A stretch of DNA of 35,358 nucleotides from a virus: IMG/VR virus record IMGVR_UViG_3300042934_000530, positions 1 to 35,358 of that record; one strand, written 5' to 3'. The notes below the pieces were generated by a model. The model ran no database searches and had not been told where the DNA came from. It saw nothing but the letters and a program-made list of their open reading frames with translations. This document shows positions 2,366 through 35,358 of this stretch, piece by piece. The first letter of the stretch is position 1, and each line of letters opens with the position of its first letter. Position numbers and translations under genes: made by a program.

Positions 2366-3415
2366 TTACTGCTTCTCGATGTTCACAACCTTGAGTGGTG
2401 GTTTCGGCCCTTTCTTTTTCTTGCCCTTGGATTTACCGGCTTTGCCGGCATTGCATTCGACCGTGGTGGACCAGCCGGACTGGGTGAATACCTGCTCGAC
2501 CGAGTCGGCCAGGTATTCGCCGTCAAGCCCGACCTTGAACCCCTGAGCGATGACGGGTCGCTCGGCGAAGATGTCCGTCCGGCCGGGCATCTCAAGCCGC
2601 ACATCAGCGGTCGAGCGGTTGAACGCCGACAGACGTGCCTTGGCCGCCGCTTCTGCAGCCGTTTTGTTGGGGTAGATATGGCGGTCGGTATGTACTGCCG
2701 GCAACCCGTCCGGAGCATCATCGTTGTCGACGGTGACCACTGCCAGCTTGCCGTCCTTCTTGTTCTGATGCTTGGTGGCGACTGCCTTGTGTGAGTTGCG
2801 ATCACCGAGACTGAATTGCCATCGGCTGAGGTCGCGTCGAGTCAGAGTGATGGCGCCAAACGTCTTGCCGCTGGCTGTCTGGCCACCTTGACGCGGCATC
2901 ACCAACAGCTTGCCGTCGGCGACCTTGGCCGTGCAATCGTATTGCTTGGCCAGACGGGTGATGAAATTAAAATCGGACTCGTTGAGCTGGTCGACCCGCG
3001 CGACCTTGGTCGATACCGGGCACACTGGTTGCCAGCCATTGCGCGCGGCGACGTCAGCCACAATCTTCGACAGCGGCACGTCTTCCCAGCTCCCGCTACG
3101 GATGGTCTTGCCACTGCCCCGCATGTCGCTGGCTTTGCCCTTGACCACGATGGTATCCGGCGGGCCTGACACCTCGACCGTGTCCACGGTATAGCTACCC
3201 ATGCGCGCCAAGGTCGTTTCGGCATACCCCAGGTAGATCTCGATTGAGCTGCCACGCCGTGGCAATTGCACTTGCCCATCACGGTCGTCGATACGCAACT
3301 CAAACTCGTCGGACTCCATGCCCGGCTTGTCAGAGGTGCGCAGCAACAACAGCCGATCATTGATCTTGGCCGTGACATCGGCCCCATCGGCGACAATGCG
3401 AAACATCGGAGTCAT
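2366..3415 (-). CDS. P2 gpD-like tail protein (late control D family)
   Basis: This 349-residue protein matches the phage late control D family: in P2-like tails gpD is the baseplate hub on which the spike sits, structurally like gp27/VgrG. Features seen are an N-terminal beta-rich half with SDEFELRIDDRDG and IEIYLGYAE, a middle FNFITRLAKQYDC segment, and a lysine-rich tail (KSKGKKKKGPKPP). The start MTPMFRIVADG at 3415 is chosen because the longer frame crosses a terminator-like hairpin. It follows gpX and is the last gene of the P2-like tail module, the same position as in P2. Confidence 0.9.
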   Translation of the reverse strand: MTPMFRIVADGADVTAKINDRLLLLRTSDKPGMESDEFELRIDDRDGQVQLPRRGSSIEIYLGYAETTLARMGSYTVDTVEVSGPPDTIVVKGKASDMRGSGKTIRSGSWEDVPLSKIVADVAARNGWQPVCPVSTKVARVDQLNESDFNFITRLAKQYDCTAKVADGKLLVMPRQGGQTASGKTFGAITLTRRDLSRWQFSLGDRNSHKAVATKHQNKKDGKLAVVTVDNDDAPDGLPAVHTDRHIYPNKTAAEAAAKARLSAFNRSTADVRLEMPGRTDIFAERPVIAQGFKVGLDGEYLADSVEQVFTQSGWSTTVECNAGKAGKSKGKKKKGPKPPLKVVNIEKQ

Positions 3416-3425
3416 GGTTTTTTTC

Positions 3426-3451
3426 CCAATAAAAACCCGCACAAGGCGGGT
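3426..3451 (-). terminator. Intra-operon terminator between gpX and gpD
   Basis: On the minus strand ACCCGC-CTTGT-GCGGGT is followed by TTTTATT. It lies between the gpX stop (3505) and the gpD start (3415), inside a single-direction operon. Confidence 0.6.
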
Positions 3452-3504
3452 CAGAAAAACAAAGTGTCGTCGCGCGCAACGCGGCGGTGCGACGGCGCCC
3501 GGGG

Positions 3505-3711
3505 TCAATCCCACAAGCTGACGCCCTCACTGGTTGGGCTGGGCAGATCCGGCAGGACGATAATCACGCCCGACCGGAACGGTTGAGGCTCATCGGCCAG
3601 CCCCTGATTGGCATCGAGCACGGCCTCGACGCTGCCATTCAGATGGCCGTAAACGTTGTTGCAAATGACATCGAGCATGTCGCCATCAGACGTCCTGCAT
3701 GTCGTCGCCAT
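3505..3711 (-). CDS. P2 gpX-like tail protein
   Basis: This 68-residue protein has the gpX/LysM-like pattern: DGDMLDVICNNVYG followed by VEAVLDANQGLAD and a C-terminal VIIVLPDLP. P2 gpX is an essential small tail protein; LysM-like folds suggest peptidoglycan or protein contact at the tail. The start at 3711 (MATTCRTSDGDML) overlaps the end of the gpU-like gene by about 26 bp, which points to translational coupling. Length and position between U and D match the P2 order. Confidence 0.88.
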   Translation of the reverse strand: MATTCRTSDGDMLDVICNNVYGHLNGSVEAVLDANQGLADEPQPFRSGVIIVLPDLPSPTSEGVSLWD

Positions 3712-4531
3712 AGCGCTCAAACTCCAAAGTGAACCCCTGTTTTCGAGCAATCCCGCCGTGCAGCAGCGCGGACTGTTCTTCGTTGATGTTTCTCAGGCAC
3801 CACGTTCCGATCACTTCGCCATAACCCGTGGTCAGGGTCAGCGGCTGTAGCCTGGCCCCGATGGAACGCAGGGTGTCGAGCTGCTTCAGCCCACCCTTGA
3901 AGCCCGGGTAGATCGTGCCCTTGAGCGTTAACTTTTCATCGCCCATACCGATGGCCTGCTTCGCCGGCCGGCGCGTCAACCGCTCCTGAGAAGCCCAGCG
4001 GAATTCGGTCGAACGGCTCAGCTCATCAAAGGCCGCCGTGTCCAGGTTGAAGTAGTACGGCTCAATTTTCGGATCACGCGGCTGGATGATCATCAGGTGT
4101 GGGAACGGCTTCACCGCTTCCGGCGCCGGCGTGGCCTCTCCGGCAAAGGAACTGGTGGGCACGATATTGGCCAGCGATGGGCTGACCTTGCCGGCGACGT
4201 TGTTGATCGCCGTGGCCGCCTTGCCCGCCTGTTCCTTCAACGTGCCCAGCCGCTCCTGCACTTCGGTCGCCGCCCGGGTGGCGCGGCCGTACACCGCCGC
4301 CACCTGCCCGACCTTGGCCTGAGCCGCATCGACGCCGCGCATCACCCGCTGAAGTTTGGCGCCGATGGCCGGACCAACAAACGGGATGTTCTCCAGCTCG
4401 GACGCGGCGCCGGTTAGTTCGCGGATCGCACCGTTGACCGGGGTCAGCATGCCATCGGCACTGCGTCGGCCGGTTTCCGCCGCCTCGACCAGGTACTTCA
4501 GGCTCGATTGCATCTGCTCCATGTAAGCCAT
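3686..4531 (-). CDS. P2 gpU-like tail protein with long N-terminal extension
   Basis: The last ~135 of 281 residues match the P2 gpU family (PHLMIIQPRDPKIEPYYFN, then RWASQERLTRRPA, IGMGDEKLTLKGTIYPGF, and GTWCLRNINEE). The first ~140 residues are helical and alanine-rich and are absent from the ~160-residue P2 protein. The ATG at 4531 has an excellent AAGGAGG four bases before it. The gene follows the tape measure with a 9-bp gap. gpU acts in tail completion; the extension is probably structural, its role unknown. Confidence 0.88.
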   Translation of the reverse strand: MAYMEQMQSSLKYLVEAAETGRRSADGMLTPVNGAIRELTGAASELENIPFVGPAIGAKLQRVMRGVDAAQAKVGQVAAVYGRATRAATEVQERLGTLKEQAGKAATAINNVAGKVSPSLANIVPTSSFAGEATPAPEAVKPFPHLMIIQPRDPKIEPYYFNLDTAAFDELSRSTEFRWASQERLTRRPAKQAIGMGDEKLTLKGTIYPGFKGGLKQLDTLRSIGARLQPLTLTTGYGEVIGTWCLRNINEEQSALLHGGIARKQGFTLEFERYGDDMQDV

Positions 4532-4540
4532 GAAACCTCC

Positions 4541-7177
4541 TTAGACATGGGGTTCGTCGTACAGCTTGGCGGCGTTACTCTTCGCCGCGTCCGCCATCAT
4601 TCGCTGCATGTACGGCATCAGATCCTGCGCCAAGGTTTGGGGGTCCTTGACGTCGCCCTGCACCGTGACCGGCATACTCAGCGAGTACTGAAACTGCTGG
4701 TCTACTTTGGCCGGCACCGGTTTTTCTGGCTCCTTCGGCTGAATGGCCAGCGCCGCAGACTTGAGCTGCGCCGTCACCGCCATCGAGCGTGCGACATCCC
4801 CCAGCGCCGGTCCTTGTTGGCCCGCCGACGCCATCATGAGCGGCGTAGTCGGCACCGGCGCCTTTGCCGTTTGCTCGGGCTTTTCATCCTCGCCACCAAA
4901 CAGCGACTTGCCCAACGACCCGCCCAGCGCCGCACCGCCCTGACTGCCAAGGTAAGCACCGATCAAGCCGCCGATGGCCGTACCAATGATCGGCACCACC
5001 GAACCGATGGCGGCCCCAGCTGCGGCGCCCGCCATGGTGCCGGCCAGGTTGCCAGCGGCCGCACCGTAGCCCTCGGCTTTTTCGTCCTTGGTCTTGGCGT
5101 TTTCAAACGTCTCATAGGCCATGGCCCCGGACTCCAGCAGCGTACCGCCTGGAATCATCTTGGCGACTTTGCCGACCTTACCAACGGCCTGCACAACCCC
5201 GCCCAGCTTGGCCATCGTGCCCGCCGGAACAGGCGGTACCGGTGGAGTGACCGGCCGTGGCACGGGAACAGGCGGACGCGGCAGCGGTGAACGCGCCGCC
5301 CCAGGGCGAGGCAGCGGCCGCCGCCGCGAAGCACTGCGCCGCGAGCCGCGACCACGCCGGCGAGACTCGCCTTGAATATCCGCGCCGCCAGCGCCGCCCA
5401 TGGCGTTGGCATTGACGACGAAAACTTTTTGGACGCCGTCGTTACCTGCGCCAGTTTCAGTGCCAAGGCCGCCGCCCGTTGCCGCTTCCTTCACCCGCGA
5501 AACAACATCCAGGCCAGTCGCTACCAGATCAAGTTCTCCGGGCTTTTCATTGCGGGCTTCGCTCCCACTCCTGCCACCGCGCGACCCACGCGCAAGGTTT
5601 AGCAGCCCCTTGCTGATTTTGATCGTGCTGAAGATACCTTTTAAGGCGATCAGCCCCGCCCCGACCGTGGCGATACCGGCAACTACCCCGGGCGCGCTAT
5701 CAGTCAGCGACGTAATGCCTTTAGTAACCTTGGTCAACGACTCGGCCACGGTGTCCGTCACCGGGCGCAGCGCATCGCCGATGCTGCGCATGGCGTCATC
5801 CATCGACTGGGCCATTTCCGCCCATTTCTGCGATGACGACTCGCGCCGCTCGGCGAGGTTCTTGTCGAGGATCCCGGTCGCTTCACGCGAATCGTTTTTG
5901 AGCTGGCTGTACAGCGCCTTGTTCTGCATGTAAGCCGACAGTGCGGCCTTGACCTGCATATCGGCGAACAGGTCGCCGGTGCGCAGGGATTCTTCCAGCG
6001 AGGCCATCATTGCCTTGGCCTTTTCGGGATTGGCTTCCTTGCTGATTTTCGAGGTCGCTTCGGCCATGGCCGCGGCGCGCTTTGGATCGGTCGCCTGAAT
6101 GTATTTCTGGGCCAGTGCCATGCTGGTTTCGAGCGTCGACATACCGTTTTGCAAACCGGTCTGCATCGATCCCTTGTAATCAATTCCGGCCTTTTCGTAA
6201 GCCTTGACCGTATCGGTCGAACCGATTTTGCCCATCCAGTTTTTCAGGTTGTTGGCCGCTTCGTCCGAACTGCCGGCCTGCTTCATCTGCACCTGCAACA
6301 TGGCGCCCAACTGCGTCACCGCGTCCAGGCCGGTGATGCCGTTGCTGGCCATGTTGGCCAGGAGCTCCGGAAACCACTTGGCCATGTCGGCCGCTTCAAA
6401 GCTGCCCGCCTGCCCTTGGTAGGCAATCGCCTCCAGCGCCTGCTGCATCTGCTTGGGGTCGGTGATCTTGGCGTTCTGCCCCAGGGCATTGATCATCTTC
6501 GCTGTGTCGACGCCGCTGGATCCTTGCCCCACGACAAACTTGGCCGCGACGGGCGCGTACTCCAGCGCCTTGCTCAGGTCCATACCGGCGCCGACCAACT
6601 GATTGACCACGTCGGCCACATCGTTGCGCGCCATGCCGGTATCGCGTGAAGTGTCGATGATCTTGCGTGACATCTCCTGCTCTTGCGGCTTGTTGGCAAT
6701 GCCGGCCTTGATCGCGATGTCACGCACAATCGCGCCAAAATCCGCGCTGACCTTGGCCGGTACCGCCATGGCACCGACACCGACCACCGCCGCACCGACG
6801 GCGCCCTTCATGCCCTTTACACCAGAATCAATCTGCTGATGACCCTTGGCTTTCAGCTCGGCTTTGTTGGCAGTCTGCCCCATCGAGCGATAGGCTTTTT
6901 CCAGCCGGCCGACCTCGATCCCCTGCTTTTTCAGGCTGTCGAGGTTCGAGTTCAAACGGTTGAGTAATTTGGACGCGCCGGCAGCGCCGGTGTCGTGAGC
7001 CTTTTTCCATTCTTCACGCAGGCGAATGGTGTCGCCAATCGTGCGCTGCAGCACGCGCGCTTTATTGCCTTCTGCCTCGAGGCGCTTGATGCGCCCGGTC
7101 ACATCCTTGAACGCGGCGCCGACCGTGGAACTGACGGCGCCGCCGATCACCAGCCCGAGGGCGAGTTTGTTTGCCAT
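4541..7177 (-). CDS. Tail tape measure protein (P2 gpT-like)
   Basis: This 878-residue protein is long and helix-rich, as expected for the ruler that sets tail length and helps DNA entry. The N-terminal third has the alanine/glycine-rich TMP pattern with a VGVGAMAVPAK hydrophobic stretch (about residue 135). The middle has helical segments around QLGAMLQVQMKQAGSS. A basic and proline-rich linker (about residues 600-650) separates it from a glycine/alanine-rich, membrane-prone stretch (IGSVVPIIGTAIGGLIGAYL, about 715-735). It lies after gpE/E', the usual place for the tape measure. Confidence 0.93.
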   Translation of the reverse strand: MANKLALGLVIGGAVSSTVGAAFKDVTGRIKRLEAEGNKARVLQRTIGDTIRLREEWKKAHDTGAAGASKLLNRLNSNLDSLKKQGIEVGRLEKAYRSMGQTANKAELKAKGHQQIDSGVKGMKGAVGAAVVGVGAMAVPAKVSADFGAIVRDIAIKAGIANKPQEQEMSRKIIDTSRDTGMARNDVADVVNQLVGAGMDLSKALEYAPVAAKFVVGQGSSGVDTAKMINALGQNAKITDPKQMQQALEAIAYQGQAGSFEAADMAKWFPELLANMASNGITGLDAVTQLGAMLQVQMKQAGSSDEAANNLKNWMGKIGSTDTVKAYEKAGIDYKGSMQTGLQNGMSTLETSMALAQKYIQATDPKRAAAMAEATSKISKEANPEKAKAMMASLEESLRTGDLFADMQVKAALSAYMQNKALYSQLKNDSREATGILDKNLAERRESSSQKWAEMAQSMDDAMRSIGDALRPVTDTVAESLTKVTKGITSLTDSAPGVVAGIATVGAGLIALKGIFSTIKISKGLLNLARGSRGGRSGSEARNEKPGELDLVATGLDVVSRVKEAATGGGLGTETGAGNDGVQKVFVVNANAMGGAGGADIQGESRRRGRGSRRSASRRRPLPRPGAARSPLPRPPVPVPRPVTPPVPPVPAGTMAKLGGVVQAVGKVGKVAKMIPGGTLLESGAMAYETFENAKTKDEKAEGYGAAAGNLAGTMAGAAAGAAIGSVVPIIGTAIGGLIGAYLGSQGGAALGGSLGKSLFGGEDEKPEQTAKAPVPTTPLMMASAGQQGPALGDVARSMAVTAQLKSAALAIQPKEPEKPVPAKVDQQFQYSLSMPVTVQGDVKDPQTLAQDLMPYMQRMMADAAKSNAAKLYDEPHV

Positions 7178-32941: not shown

Positions 32942-33153
32942 GCGCTGCAGAGAAAATTGATTTTCAAATCACACCAGGCGCTTGGTTCCGCCAAGACCTG
33001 CTTTATCCAGTGTTCGGACTCAGCACAGAAGCTGTCCGCAAGTATCGTTCTCGCGGTCTGTGGCTGGAGGGCAAACACTACCGTACCGACCCTGCCAACG
33101 TGCTGGTTTACAACAAGGAAGCAATTGAAAAGTGGATGGCAGGTCAATCATGA
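32938..33153 (+). CDS. xis: Excisionase
   Basis: A 71-residue protein starting MSAAEKIDFQITPGAWFRQD, with LLYPVFGLSTEAVRKYRSRG, LWLEGKHYRTDPANVLVYNK and EAIEKWMAG, fits the phage excisionase/winged-HTH family. It is joined by ATGA to both the methyltransferase and the integrase. It should bind and bend att DNA to favour excision. Confidence 0.9.
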   Translation: MSAAEKIDFQITPGAWFRQDLLYPVFGLSTEAVRKYRSRGLWLEGKHYRTDPANVLVYNKEAIEKWMAGQS

Positions 33154-34367
33154 GTGACAAGATGCCCACAGGTGTCGAGATGAACGGCAAACAGCTGCGC
33201 ATCTGGTTCATCTTCAATGGCCAGCGATGCCGGGAACCACTAGAGGGGATCTCGAAGGTTAACAAAGCTGCTATTGCCTATGCCGACAATAAACGTCGCA
33301 CGATCCTCGCAGAGATCAAAGAGGGCCGCTTCGACTACGCGGCCCACTTTCCCAACTCTCCCAGGGCAGCAATGTTCACCGGGACTGGCGGACCATCTCT
33401 GAAGCGGACCGTGAAGGAAGGTATCGATCGATGGCTGGAGGTTCAGCGCGCACTCAAAGCATCAAGTACCGTCGTTAACTACGTCAGCAAGGCCAAACAC
33501 GTCGATAACAAATTCGGCAAACGCCGAATCGTGGACATCAGCAAGAGCGATATAGAGCTATTTCAAGCACAACTGCTGAAGCAAGGCCTATCCCCAAAGA
33601 CAGTAAACGACATCTTCACCGTCGCCCGAGGCGTCTGGGCGGACGCCTTTGGCGACGGCATCTTGAAAGCGAACCCACTGGACCGAATCAGCAACGTCGG
33701 TTCGGACGTCGACCTTGAACACGCCGATCCCTTCAGTCGCACCGAGATTGAGTTGATCGGCAAAGCTGATCCGGACCGACGAGCTGACGCCCGAATGATT
33801 GAGTTCAACTGTTGGGCCGGACTATCGCTATCCGAACTCATCGCACTCGCGGCTGAGGACATCGATCTTGACGCCGGCCTGGTGCAGGTTCGTCGTGCGT
33901 TAGTCGTAGGCGAATTCAAAGTCCCGAAAGAACGCTCACGTGTACGTATCATTGAGCTGATAGATCCTGCACTTGAACTGATGCGAGAGATCGTTGCAGC
34001 AGCCAGGGATGTACCTGCAGAAGAGATCACCGTTATCCAGCGTGACAACATCACGTCGAAGAAAATGAAAATCAGGTTTCTTTTCCGTAGTTCCACCAGC
34101 GGCTTGCTATGGAGCGGTAAGACACTCAGCAATTGGTTCACCGCGCACCTTAAAAAGGCAGAGGTTCGTCACCGAGGCGCCAATCAGTGCCGCCATACGT
34201 TCGCCAGTCAGATGCTATCGAGTTACGTGCCAGTCGAATGGGTAGCTCGGCAACTGGGACATGCAGATACAACGATGGTGAGAAAACATTATGGACGCTG
34301 GATCCCGAAAGATACAAAAAGCATGGCGGGCATCGTGTCAAAAATGCTGGGGTTCAGAGTTGAATGA
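33150..34367 (+). CDS. int: Tyrosine-recombinase integrase
   Basis: This 405-residue protein has an N-terminal arm-binding part (GKQLRIWFIFNGQRCREPLE), a core-binding SAM-like region (LFQAQLLKQGLSPKTVNDIF) and a catalytic domain. Visible active-site residues: lysine in KVPKERSRVRII, arginine 348 in CRHTFASQML, histidine 371 in LGHADTTM, tyrosine 381 in RKHYGRW. The first arginine (normally G-L-R-x-S-E-L) is serine 226 (GLSLSELIAL), and the HxxR histidine is asparagine 345. It should integrate at the nearby tRNA-Ser. ATG 33150 overlaps the excisionase stop. Confidence 0.95.
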   Translation: MSDKMPTGVEMNGKQLRIWFIFNGQRCREPLEGISKVNKAAIAYADNKRRTILAEIKEGRFDYAAHFPNSPRAAMFTGTGGPSLKRTVKEGIDRWLEVQRALKASSTVVNYVSKAKHVDNKFGKRRIVDISKSDIELFQAQLLKQGLSPKTVNDIFTVARGVWADAFGDGILKANPLDRISNVGSDVDLEHADPFSRTEIELIGKADPDRRADARMIEFNCWAGLSLSELIALAAEDIDLDAGLVQVRRALVVGEFKVPKERSRVRIIELIDPALELMREIVAAARDVPAEEITVIQRDNITSKKMKIRFLFRSSTSGLLWSGKTLSNWFTAHLKKAEVRHRGANQCRHTFASQMLSSYVPVEWVARQLGHADTTMVRKHYGRWIPKDTKSMAGIVSKMLGFRVE

Positions 34368-34406: not shown

Positions 34407-35156
34407 CTACCCTCGTGATTCCAATCTATGGTACTCCACCCATTGAACCGCGGATTCGAAAACCTCCAATACCCTAAGCTGCAGGGTCGACTCGAATGAC
34501 ACCATTTTGTTGGAGTAATCTAAATAGGCGTTAACGTGTTCCCTGTTCACAATATTAAATGGCTCCGTTCCACCAGTGCGCGGATCGATCGGTTGTTCAC
34601 CGTACTCTTGAGCAAGCAATCGAACTTTATCTGTCAGCACAAGCCAGCTTAGGGCGTGCTCAGGAGATAACGCTACGGCTAATGTGAGAGCATGTTGAAA
34701 ATCTTGGTATCTTGAATGCCCGGTTTCCATAGCAAATTTCAGCCGAAGAAATTCGGGCTCTTTTTTGATCGCCGAGATATTTAACTTTAATTGCTCAATT
34801 TTCAAAACACCGAGATCGATCGAGGTTATCGGTGTTTCATGTCCAAAGAGTCTGGTTCTATCAAACGCGTCTATTACAGACGCCACAAGCAGATTCAACA
34901 CTTTGAGCGTCTCAGTTTTTCTACGGAAGCTCGGCAGCAGTTCGATAATCACATAAAAAATATAGGCTGAGATGATTCCAACGAGAAGGTCGCTTGTGAC
35001 ACTGGCAGTGGAATCTGCGCGAAGGAAAGCAGCCATCCGCCCCCCGTCCAATTTTTCCCAAAGTGGAAGCCTCGCGTTAACGAGACAGACGAGCACAAAC
35101 GCGACCACTACCGCGGCCAACAAGCATCGCTCACGCGCATCTCGCCAAATCCACAT
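34407..35156 (-). CDS. Unknown membrane protein in the integrase-tRNA cargo slot
   Basis: A 249-residue protein (ATG 35156, with AGGAG seven bases before). Two membrane segments are visible: CLLAAVVVAFVLVCLV (about residues 11-26) and LLVGIISAYIFYVIIELLP (about 57-75). The C-terminal ~170 residues are soluble and helical (LNLLVASVIDAFDRTRLFG, KIEQLKLNISAIKKE, HALTLAVALSPEHALSWLVL). The gene is less GC-rich than its neighbours and reads against the integrase. With its own promoter it can be expressed in the lysogen. No family is recognised; superinfection exclusion or another defence role is only a guess from location and membrane topology. Confidence 0.85.
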   Translation of the reverse strand: MWIWRDARERCLLAAVVVAFVLVCLVNARLPLWEKLDGGRMAAFLRADSTASVTSDLLVGIISAYIFYVIIELLPSFRRKTETLKVLNLLVASVIDAFDRTRLFGHETPITSIDLGVLKIEQLKLNISAIKKEPEFLRLKFAMETGHSRYQDFQHALTLAVALSPEHALSWLVLTDKVRLLAQEYGEQPIDPRTGGTEPFNIVNREHVNAYLDYSNKMVSFESTLQLRVLEVFESAVQWVEYHRLESRG

Positions 35157-35196
35157 TCCATCACTCCTTTTCGCGCCGGCCCTGATGCAGCGTCTC

Positions 35197-35225
35197 AATA
35201 TATGCCCTAAAAATGCCCTAAACAA
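35197..35225 (-). promoter_or_regulatory. Promoter for the membrane-protein gene
   Basis: On the minus strand TTGTTT (35225-35220), a 17-bp spacer and TATATT (35202-35197, 5/6 of consensus) lie 40 bp before the ATG. The spacer consists largely of the ATGCCCTAAA repeats, so a bound protein there would affect transcription. Confidence 0.6.
35202..35222. repeat. Tandem ATGCCCTAAA repeat near the attachment site
   Basis: ATGCCCTAAA occurs at 35202-35211 and 35213-35222, exactly 11 bp (one helical turn) apart, 70-90 bp from the tRNA. Such spaced direct repeats next to att are typical of integrase arm-type or excisionase sites; the assignment is inferred. Confidence 0.6.
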
Positions 35226-35240
35226 AACTCTAGAAACGAA

Positions 35241-35276
35241 AAAGCCCCCGTAATCAGCAATGATTACGGGGGCTTT
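35241..35276 (-). terminator. Strong terminator downstream of tRNA-Ser
   Basis: AAAGCCCCCGTAATCA (35241-35256) and TGATTACGGGGGCTTT (35261-35276) form a perfect 16-bp stem with a 4-base loop. On the minus strand it is followed by TTCGTTTC, so it can end the tRNA-Ser transcript, which comes from the right. It separates the tRNA from the membrane-protein gene. Confidence 0.88.
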
Positions 35277-35290
35277 GTCTTGTTCAATAA

Positions 35291-35358
35291 TGGCGGAGAG
35301 ATAGGGATTCGAACCCTAGGTACCGGTGAAGGTACAACGGATTTCGAATCCGTCCCAT
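35291..35358 (-). tRNA. tRNA-Ser(CGA), partial; attachment site
   Basis: Reading the minus strand, 68 bases at the window end form the 3' part of a class II tRNA: anticodon stem ACGGA/TCCGT with loop TTCGAAA (anticodon CGA at 35346-35344), a long variable arm (GGTACC-containing), T-arm with GGTTCGAATCC, and acceptor strand TCTCTCC-G-CCA with encoded CCA. The 5' part is cut off by the window. A serine tRNA 3' end next to int/xis is a common phage attachment site; the core should lie in this segment. Confidence 0.95.

Follow-up and report, generated by a model that had tools for sequence, protein, structure and literature searches.

A membrane-protein gene family in the variable cargo slot that separates integrase from tRNA-Ser(CGA) in Pseudomonas prophages

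Near its right end, the window (the whole stretch of DNA analysed here, the 35,358 nt of virus record IMGVR_UViG_3300042934_000530) carries a single minus-strand gene between a tyrosine integrase gene and the 3' part of a tRNA-Ser(CGA) gene. The gene encodes a protein with two transmembrane (TM) segments, and its position raises the question of whether it is exchangeable phage cargo and, if so, what such cargo may do for the lysogen. The original prediction had read the gene as an exclusion or defence candidate with its own promoter. The features of the region are listed in Table 1.

Table 1. Features at the right end of the window.
Feature	Position	Strand	Description	Evidence
Tyrosine integrase with arm-binding domain	33150..34367	+		Pfam Arm-DNA-bind_2 2.4e-18, Phage_integrase 1.2e-13
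Gene	34407..35156	-	249 aa; TM helices at about 7-27 and 53-76, helical C-terminal domain in the cytosol	ORF and RBS; 22-member alignment A4; AlphaFold2 pLDDT 88.6, pTM 0.76; purifying selection
RBS AGGAG	35164..35168 (approximate)	-	7 nt upstream of ATG	From sequence
Originally predicted promoter TTGTTT-17-TATATT	35197..35225	-	8/12 consensus, not conserved	
Tandem repeat TTTAGGGCATTTTTAGGGCA, 11-bp unit	35203..35222	-	Putative integrase arm-type sites, P' arm	
Strong stem-loop with T tail	35241..35276	-	Between tRNA and gene	
Putative att core AATCCCTATCTCTCCGCCAT	35290..35309	-	3' end of tRNA-Ser(CGA)	
tRNA-Ser(CGA), 3' part, cut by window end	35290..35358	-		Matches complete tRNA in L003, L012 and L018

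The ORF is intact over 249 codons, from ATG 35156 to the stop codon at 34407. The original prediction had started the gene at TTG 35225, which is wrong, as relatives in the same slot start with MW[VI]W at the position of ATG 35156. The upstream TTG is, moreover, the first base of the -35 hexamer of the promoter proposed in the same prediction, so that gene start and promoter, as given, were incompatible. Other elements of that prediction stood: the good RBS lies just ahead of the ATG, the gene is less GC-rich (47.6%) than the whole window (59.8%), it is convergent with the integrase gene (stops at 34407 and 34367, respectively), and its location between integrase and the tRNA-Ser end is seen in the sequence. 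The gene is constrained and evolves as coding sequence under purifying selection, as indicated by two family pairs (dN 0.070 and dS 0.452 for L004/L005; dN/dS values of 0.190/0.986 for L003/L005).

Slot loci have stem-loops equivalent to the one that separates gene and tRNA in the window. The stem-loop in the window carries a T tail, lies upstream of the gene and would stop transcription reading through from the tRNA. A copy of the 20-bp att core was found at the far end of an element of P. caspiana (L166). The left att core was not found within the window, the record being seemingly truncated at that end; a strong inverted repeat, ACTATATGGTGACGGGGGGGCGTCACCATATAGT, occurs near the left window end (about 52-86). 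Pseudomonas prophages inserted in tRNA-Ser are already known (PMC2647930).

The leader of the gene is AAAAGGAGTGATGGAATG. Both hexamers of the promoter assigned to it are literally present, TTGTTT at 35225-35220 and TATATT at 35202-35197, with a spacer of 17 nt. A consensus promoter scan found no site reaching the 9/12 threshold, and when the 84-nt leader was dinucleotide-shuffled, 34% of the shuffles contained a site equal to or better than the proposed one, which is chance level. Most of the spacer is covered by the TTTAGGGCATTTTTAGGGCA tandem repeat. This repeat is found in 40/40 tRNA-Ser-linked slots irrespective of their cargo, with its spacing to the tRNA nearly constant; it is followed by TATATT in 2 of these 40 slots, and the TATATT is absent from the slot homologues L003, L012 and L018. 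A similar repeat, TAGGGCAAAAATAGGGCA, lies approximately 120 bp from the 20-bp copy of the tRNA 3' end on the far side of L166. Because the repeat is present whatever the cargo and recurs beside the far att core, the simplest reading is that it represents putative arm-type sites of the integrase. The promoter originally proposed was probably mistaken, though a promoter overlapping the putative arm sites could exist in this one prophage. In many slots among L086-L165, the TTAGGGCA arm repeats are succeeded by another repeat, degenerate and similar to CCGCTCTA, often in two copies spaced by about 11 bp; it may correspond to further integrase, Xis or host-factor sites.

Searching viral contigs with the integrase as query yielded 117 relatives, the best 80 of which were kept. 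Among these 80, 39 slots are complete, i.e., can be followed from the integrase stop through the arm repeat. Nine of the complete slots are empty (26-55 nt each), and the remaining 30 hold 0.73-2.98 kb of varied cargo. The cargo gene nearest the integrase points against it in 25 of the 30 occupied slots, as in the window. Clustering resolved the slot cargo into several dozen unrelated families; the family of the window's gene accounts for 5 loci among the best 80 of the 117 relatives, and is also present in P. caspiana L012. The comparison of the same slot across related prophages, which the original prediction had called for, thus revealed fixed flanks, exchanged contents that include several defence candidates, and slots with no contents at all. 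The region that integrase and tRNA-Ser(CGA) enclose is a genuine hotspot for cargo. In this group of Pseudomonas prophages the interval from integrase to attR is hypervariable, and the window's gene is one of its dispensable occupants, carried as cargo.

Many of the genes using this slot are of defence type, in line with what had been predicted. PADLOC, the PDC entries of which are candidate systems and not all validated, matched slot cargo to PDC-S65/SIR2 (3e-208), DUF626_VIII (3e-206), PDC-M03A (3e-163), PDC-S20 (a KAP NTPase, 8e-89), PDC-S60 and a GajA/AriA/PtuA-like ATPase, while Pfam searches identified Mrr_cat, HNH, HipA_C and YfbU-group domains. Anti-phage-type matches are frequent among the 42 slot representatives analysed with PADLOC and Pfam, as counted without a background rate for random phage genes. 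The cargo seen most often is a protein of about 184 aa with a YfbU domain, present at 11 loci (L087, L090, L091, L117, L118, L121, L123-L125, L130 and L149). The slots of L098, L131, L136 and L137 share a recurrent pair, a five-TM protein of approximately 207 aa and a 324-aa protein, which had no strong PADLOC match and is another candidate defence pair.

Antiviral hotspots have been described in P2-like and P4-like prophages, and integrase-adjacent ones in Vibrionaceae and Bacillus prophages (Rousset et al. 2022, PMC9122126). The present slot resembles them in being a small locus (about 1-5 kb) with conserved phage flanks, a high gene turnover and many anti-phage systems. In contrast, it belongs to another phage group, lies between the integrase stop and the arm repeat/tRNA-Ser(CGA), and is known here from sequence. 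No paper on this particular integrase/tRNA-Ser slot was found in the literature searched.

About 20 distinct relatives of the window's protein were identified in viral contigs, species genomes and Pseudomonadaceae genomes, and all traced hosts are Pseudomonadaceae. The family is rare. A first profile detected it in 4 of 400 sampled Pseudomonas genomes; a broader profile matched 11 of 399 genomes in a wider group, 3 of the 11 matches being short fragments. A class-wide genome sample contained no further credible member, and tblastn against phage and plasmid records returned no family match. The members found in tRNA-Ser-slot prophages form one supported clade (97/96). Others reside in a second phage type, in which the gene is located between terminase/portal-like genes and an MvaT-like gene, in a conjugative-type element (L078), in relaxase-bearing elements (L033 and L048), in a defence-rich island carrying PrrC-like and AbiU2 genes (L032), and at the other end of a related prophage (L049); conjugative, terminase and portal are names assigned solely by eye from the sequence. 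A truncated copy (L013, 6310-6714) was also observed, and the family profile matched short fragments in further Pseudomonadaceae genomes (L074-L076): truncated copies fit accessory-gene turnover, and the short fragments may be chance matches. Two hits were dropped, one from Sinanaerobacter (L014) as a chance translation, the other (L051) because its multi-helix, transporter-like ORF matched in the TM2 region only.

Hydropathy analysis placed hydrophobic segments near residues 6-30 and 51-77. The AlphaFold2 model, obtained with 22 sequences, replaced a first run with 9 sequences (pLDDT 51.6) and features a TM1 helix at residues 7-27, a TM2 that runs without a break into a long helix in the cytosol (48-100) and a helical bundle thereafter. 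The two methods agree on a membrane anchor and a cytosolic domain, and the two membrane segments and helical soluble domain originally predicted are thereby corroborated. The protein is probably an inner-membrane protein with both termini inside the cell. Conservation peaks in TM2, where A64, Y65, F67, Y68 and P75 are invariant; the helix spanning residues 164-186 is also conserved, with an invariant W171 and nearly invariant T175 and D176.

No known family or fold accounts for this protein, and the statement that it has no recognisable motif holds for the sequence libraries and for Foldseek. Searches of Pfam, NCBIfam, PHROGs and PADLOC with the window protein, and of Pfam and NCBIfam with the 22 members, gave nothing credible; the libraries searched indicated no homology to known defence proteins. 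A PDB sequence search returned chance matches only, and Foldseek found no match with E < 0.1 among PDB and viral structures. An HEPN RNase was considered because of the sequence R100-x5-H106. H106 is nearly invariant, but the arginine varies across alignment A4, and the assignment was rejected for that reason; nor did any PDB fold match at E<0.1. The topology also suggested putAbiC (PF16872), the one member of which that was examined (L193) has two N-terminal TM helices followed by a mostly helical cytosolic part. This candidate gained no support, as none of the 22 members had a Pfam match to it and profile comparison gave a probability of 7.9%, restricted to the TM region. The protein family is thus new, whereas the hotspot that houses it is of a familiar type.

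The defence-rich slot, the defence genes found beside relatives elsewhere (AbiJ_NTD4-DUF7014, PrrC-like, AbiU2 and SIR2), the conserved TM2 and cytosolic helix, and the AlphaFold2 model lead us to favour, tentatively, an anti-phage effector that is anchored in the membrane and acts by abortive infection. The TM2 helix is predicted to continue into the long cytosolic helix carrying the helical domain. In a lysogen expressing the gene, as we infer, the cytosolic domain would sense a product or consequence of an incoming phage, the TM hairpin would then compromise the membrane, and the cell would arrest or die ahead of the rival phage's maturation. Location is weak evidence for any one gene, and non-defence genes also occur in cargo slots; membrane damage is not indicated by topology alone. 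A functional analogy is offered by PdpSau, a membrane-anchored abortive-infection protein of Staphylococcus prophages (PMC10127798), which is likewise a prophage accessory gene product with an N-terminal membrane anchor and a cytosolic C-terminal domain of similar size. PdpSau differs in having one TM, an OB-fold-like domain and a location in the lysis module, and has no demonstrated sequence relation to the window protein.

Small membrane proteins that exclude superinfecting phages are known in several phages, and the hairpin could stop the DNA of related phages from entering at the inner membrane without killing the cell. The two predicted TM helices, the prophage location and the peak of conservation in TM2 are consistent with this. 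Superinfection exclusion of this kind is nevertheless unlikely, as a conserved cytosolic domain of about 170 residues exceeds what a hairpin needs, and as the family is also present on a conjugative-type element and in islands, where excluding a cognate phage makes less sense.

The gene could also be a moron serving host fitness outside defence, in stress, signalling or the envelope. Cargo slots hold mixed genes, and the lack of defence homology in any library fits such a role; the frequency of defence-type neighbours, both in the slot and in the other contexts, argues against it, and we regard it as improbable.

Neighbouring genes suggest a further alternative, in which multi-gene defence systems would use the protein as one membrane subunit and exchange its partners (an AbiJ_NTD4-DUF7014 protein, a CoiA-like nuclease or a 355-aa protein), with MvaT-like silencers nearby. 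An AbiJ_NTD4-DUF7014 gene often neighbours distant members of the family and lies close upstream of the family gene at three separate tree positions. At 14 loci outside the tRNA-Ser slot, no more than about 2.6 kb separates the family gene from a same-strand MvaT-like (H-NS family) gene, which could silence the cargo (for instance, L032 10189-10602, L077 8413-8778 and L020). A CoiA-like nuclease gene adjoins the family gene in two distant elements, L045 (7146-7853, a Pfam CoiA_nuc match) and L079 (downstream of 8964, similar by eye). However, the reciprocal test failed, in that the family gene is absent within roughly 6 kb of 12/12 other Pseudomonas DUF7014 loci. L184 carries an AbiJ gene in seemingly the same phage slot without the family gene, and in the window and its slot relatives the family gene stands alone. 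A two-gene system with AbiJ was rejected on the strength of this test, and the association with these AbiJ_NTD4-DUF7014 proteins, which are soluble and not homologous to the family, is read as one of shared hotspots rather than of an obligate pair. A multi-gene subunit thus appears quite improbable.

Two further neighbourhoods were noted. A protein of 354-355 aa is encoded next to the family gene at two distant loci (L077 9726-10793 and L082 8073-9137), its gene in L082 ending just ahead of the family gene start. In L049 (about 2873-5061), a transposase-bearing insert interrupts an AbiJ_NTD4-DUF7014 gene located at the prophage's far end, where a SIR2 gene and a distant member of the family adjoin it.

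A core role for the phage near att, in controlling integration or excision or in lysis, is very improbable. The leader overlaps the putative arm-type repeats, and integrase could therefore bind there, but nine of the complete slots are empty, the majority of the others hold different genes, and this family occurs in only 5 of the 80 related loci kept.

Returning to the abortive effector, a more far-reaching version is possible but rather doubtful: the proteins would constitute a new effector family with an undescribed all-helical sensor domain and an invariant AYxFY...P motif in the membrane part, spread by phages, conjugative elements and islands among Pseudomonadaceae, and housed in an undescribed integrase-attR hotspot with leaders that overlap arm sites. 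The locus also illustrates that a promoter-like site near att can in fact be an integrase binding array, putative here. The slot is easily recognised by the order of integrase stop, cargo, TTAGGGCA tandem repeat, stem-loop and tRNA-Ser, and prophages with an empty slot are natural controls. Known or candidate defence systems share the slot with many genes that are uncharacterised, and the slot provides a short list of anti-phage candidates, the window's family included.
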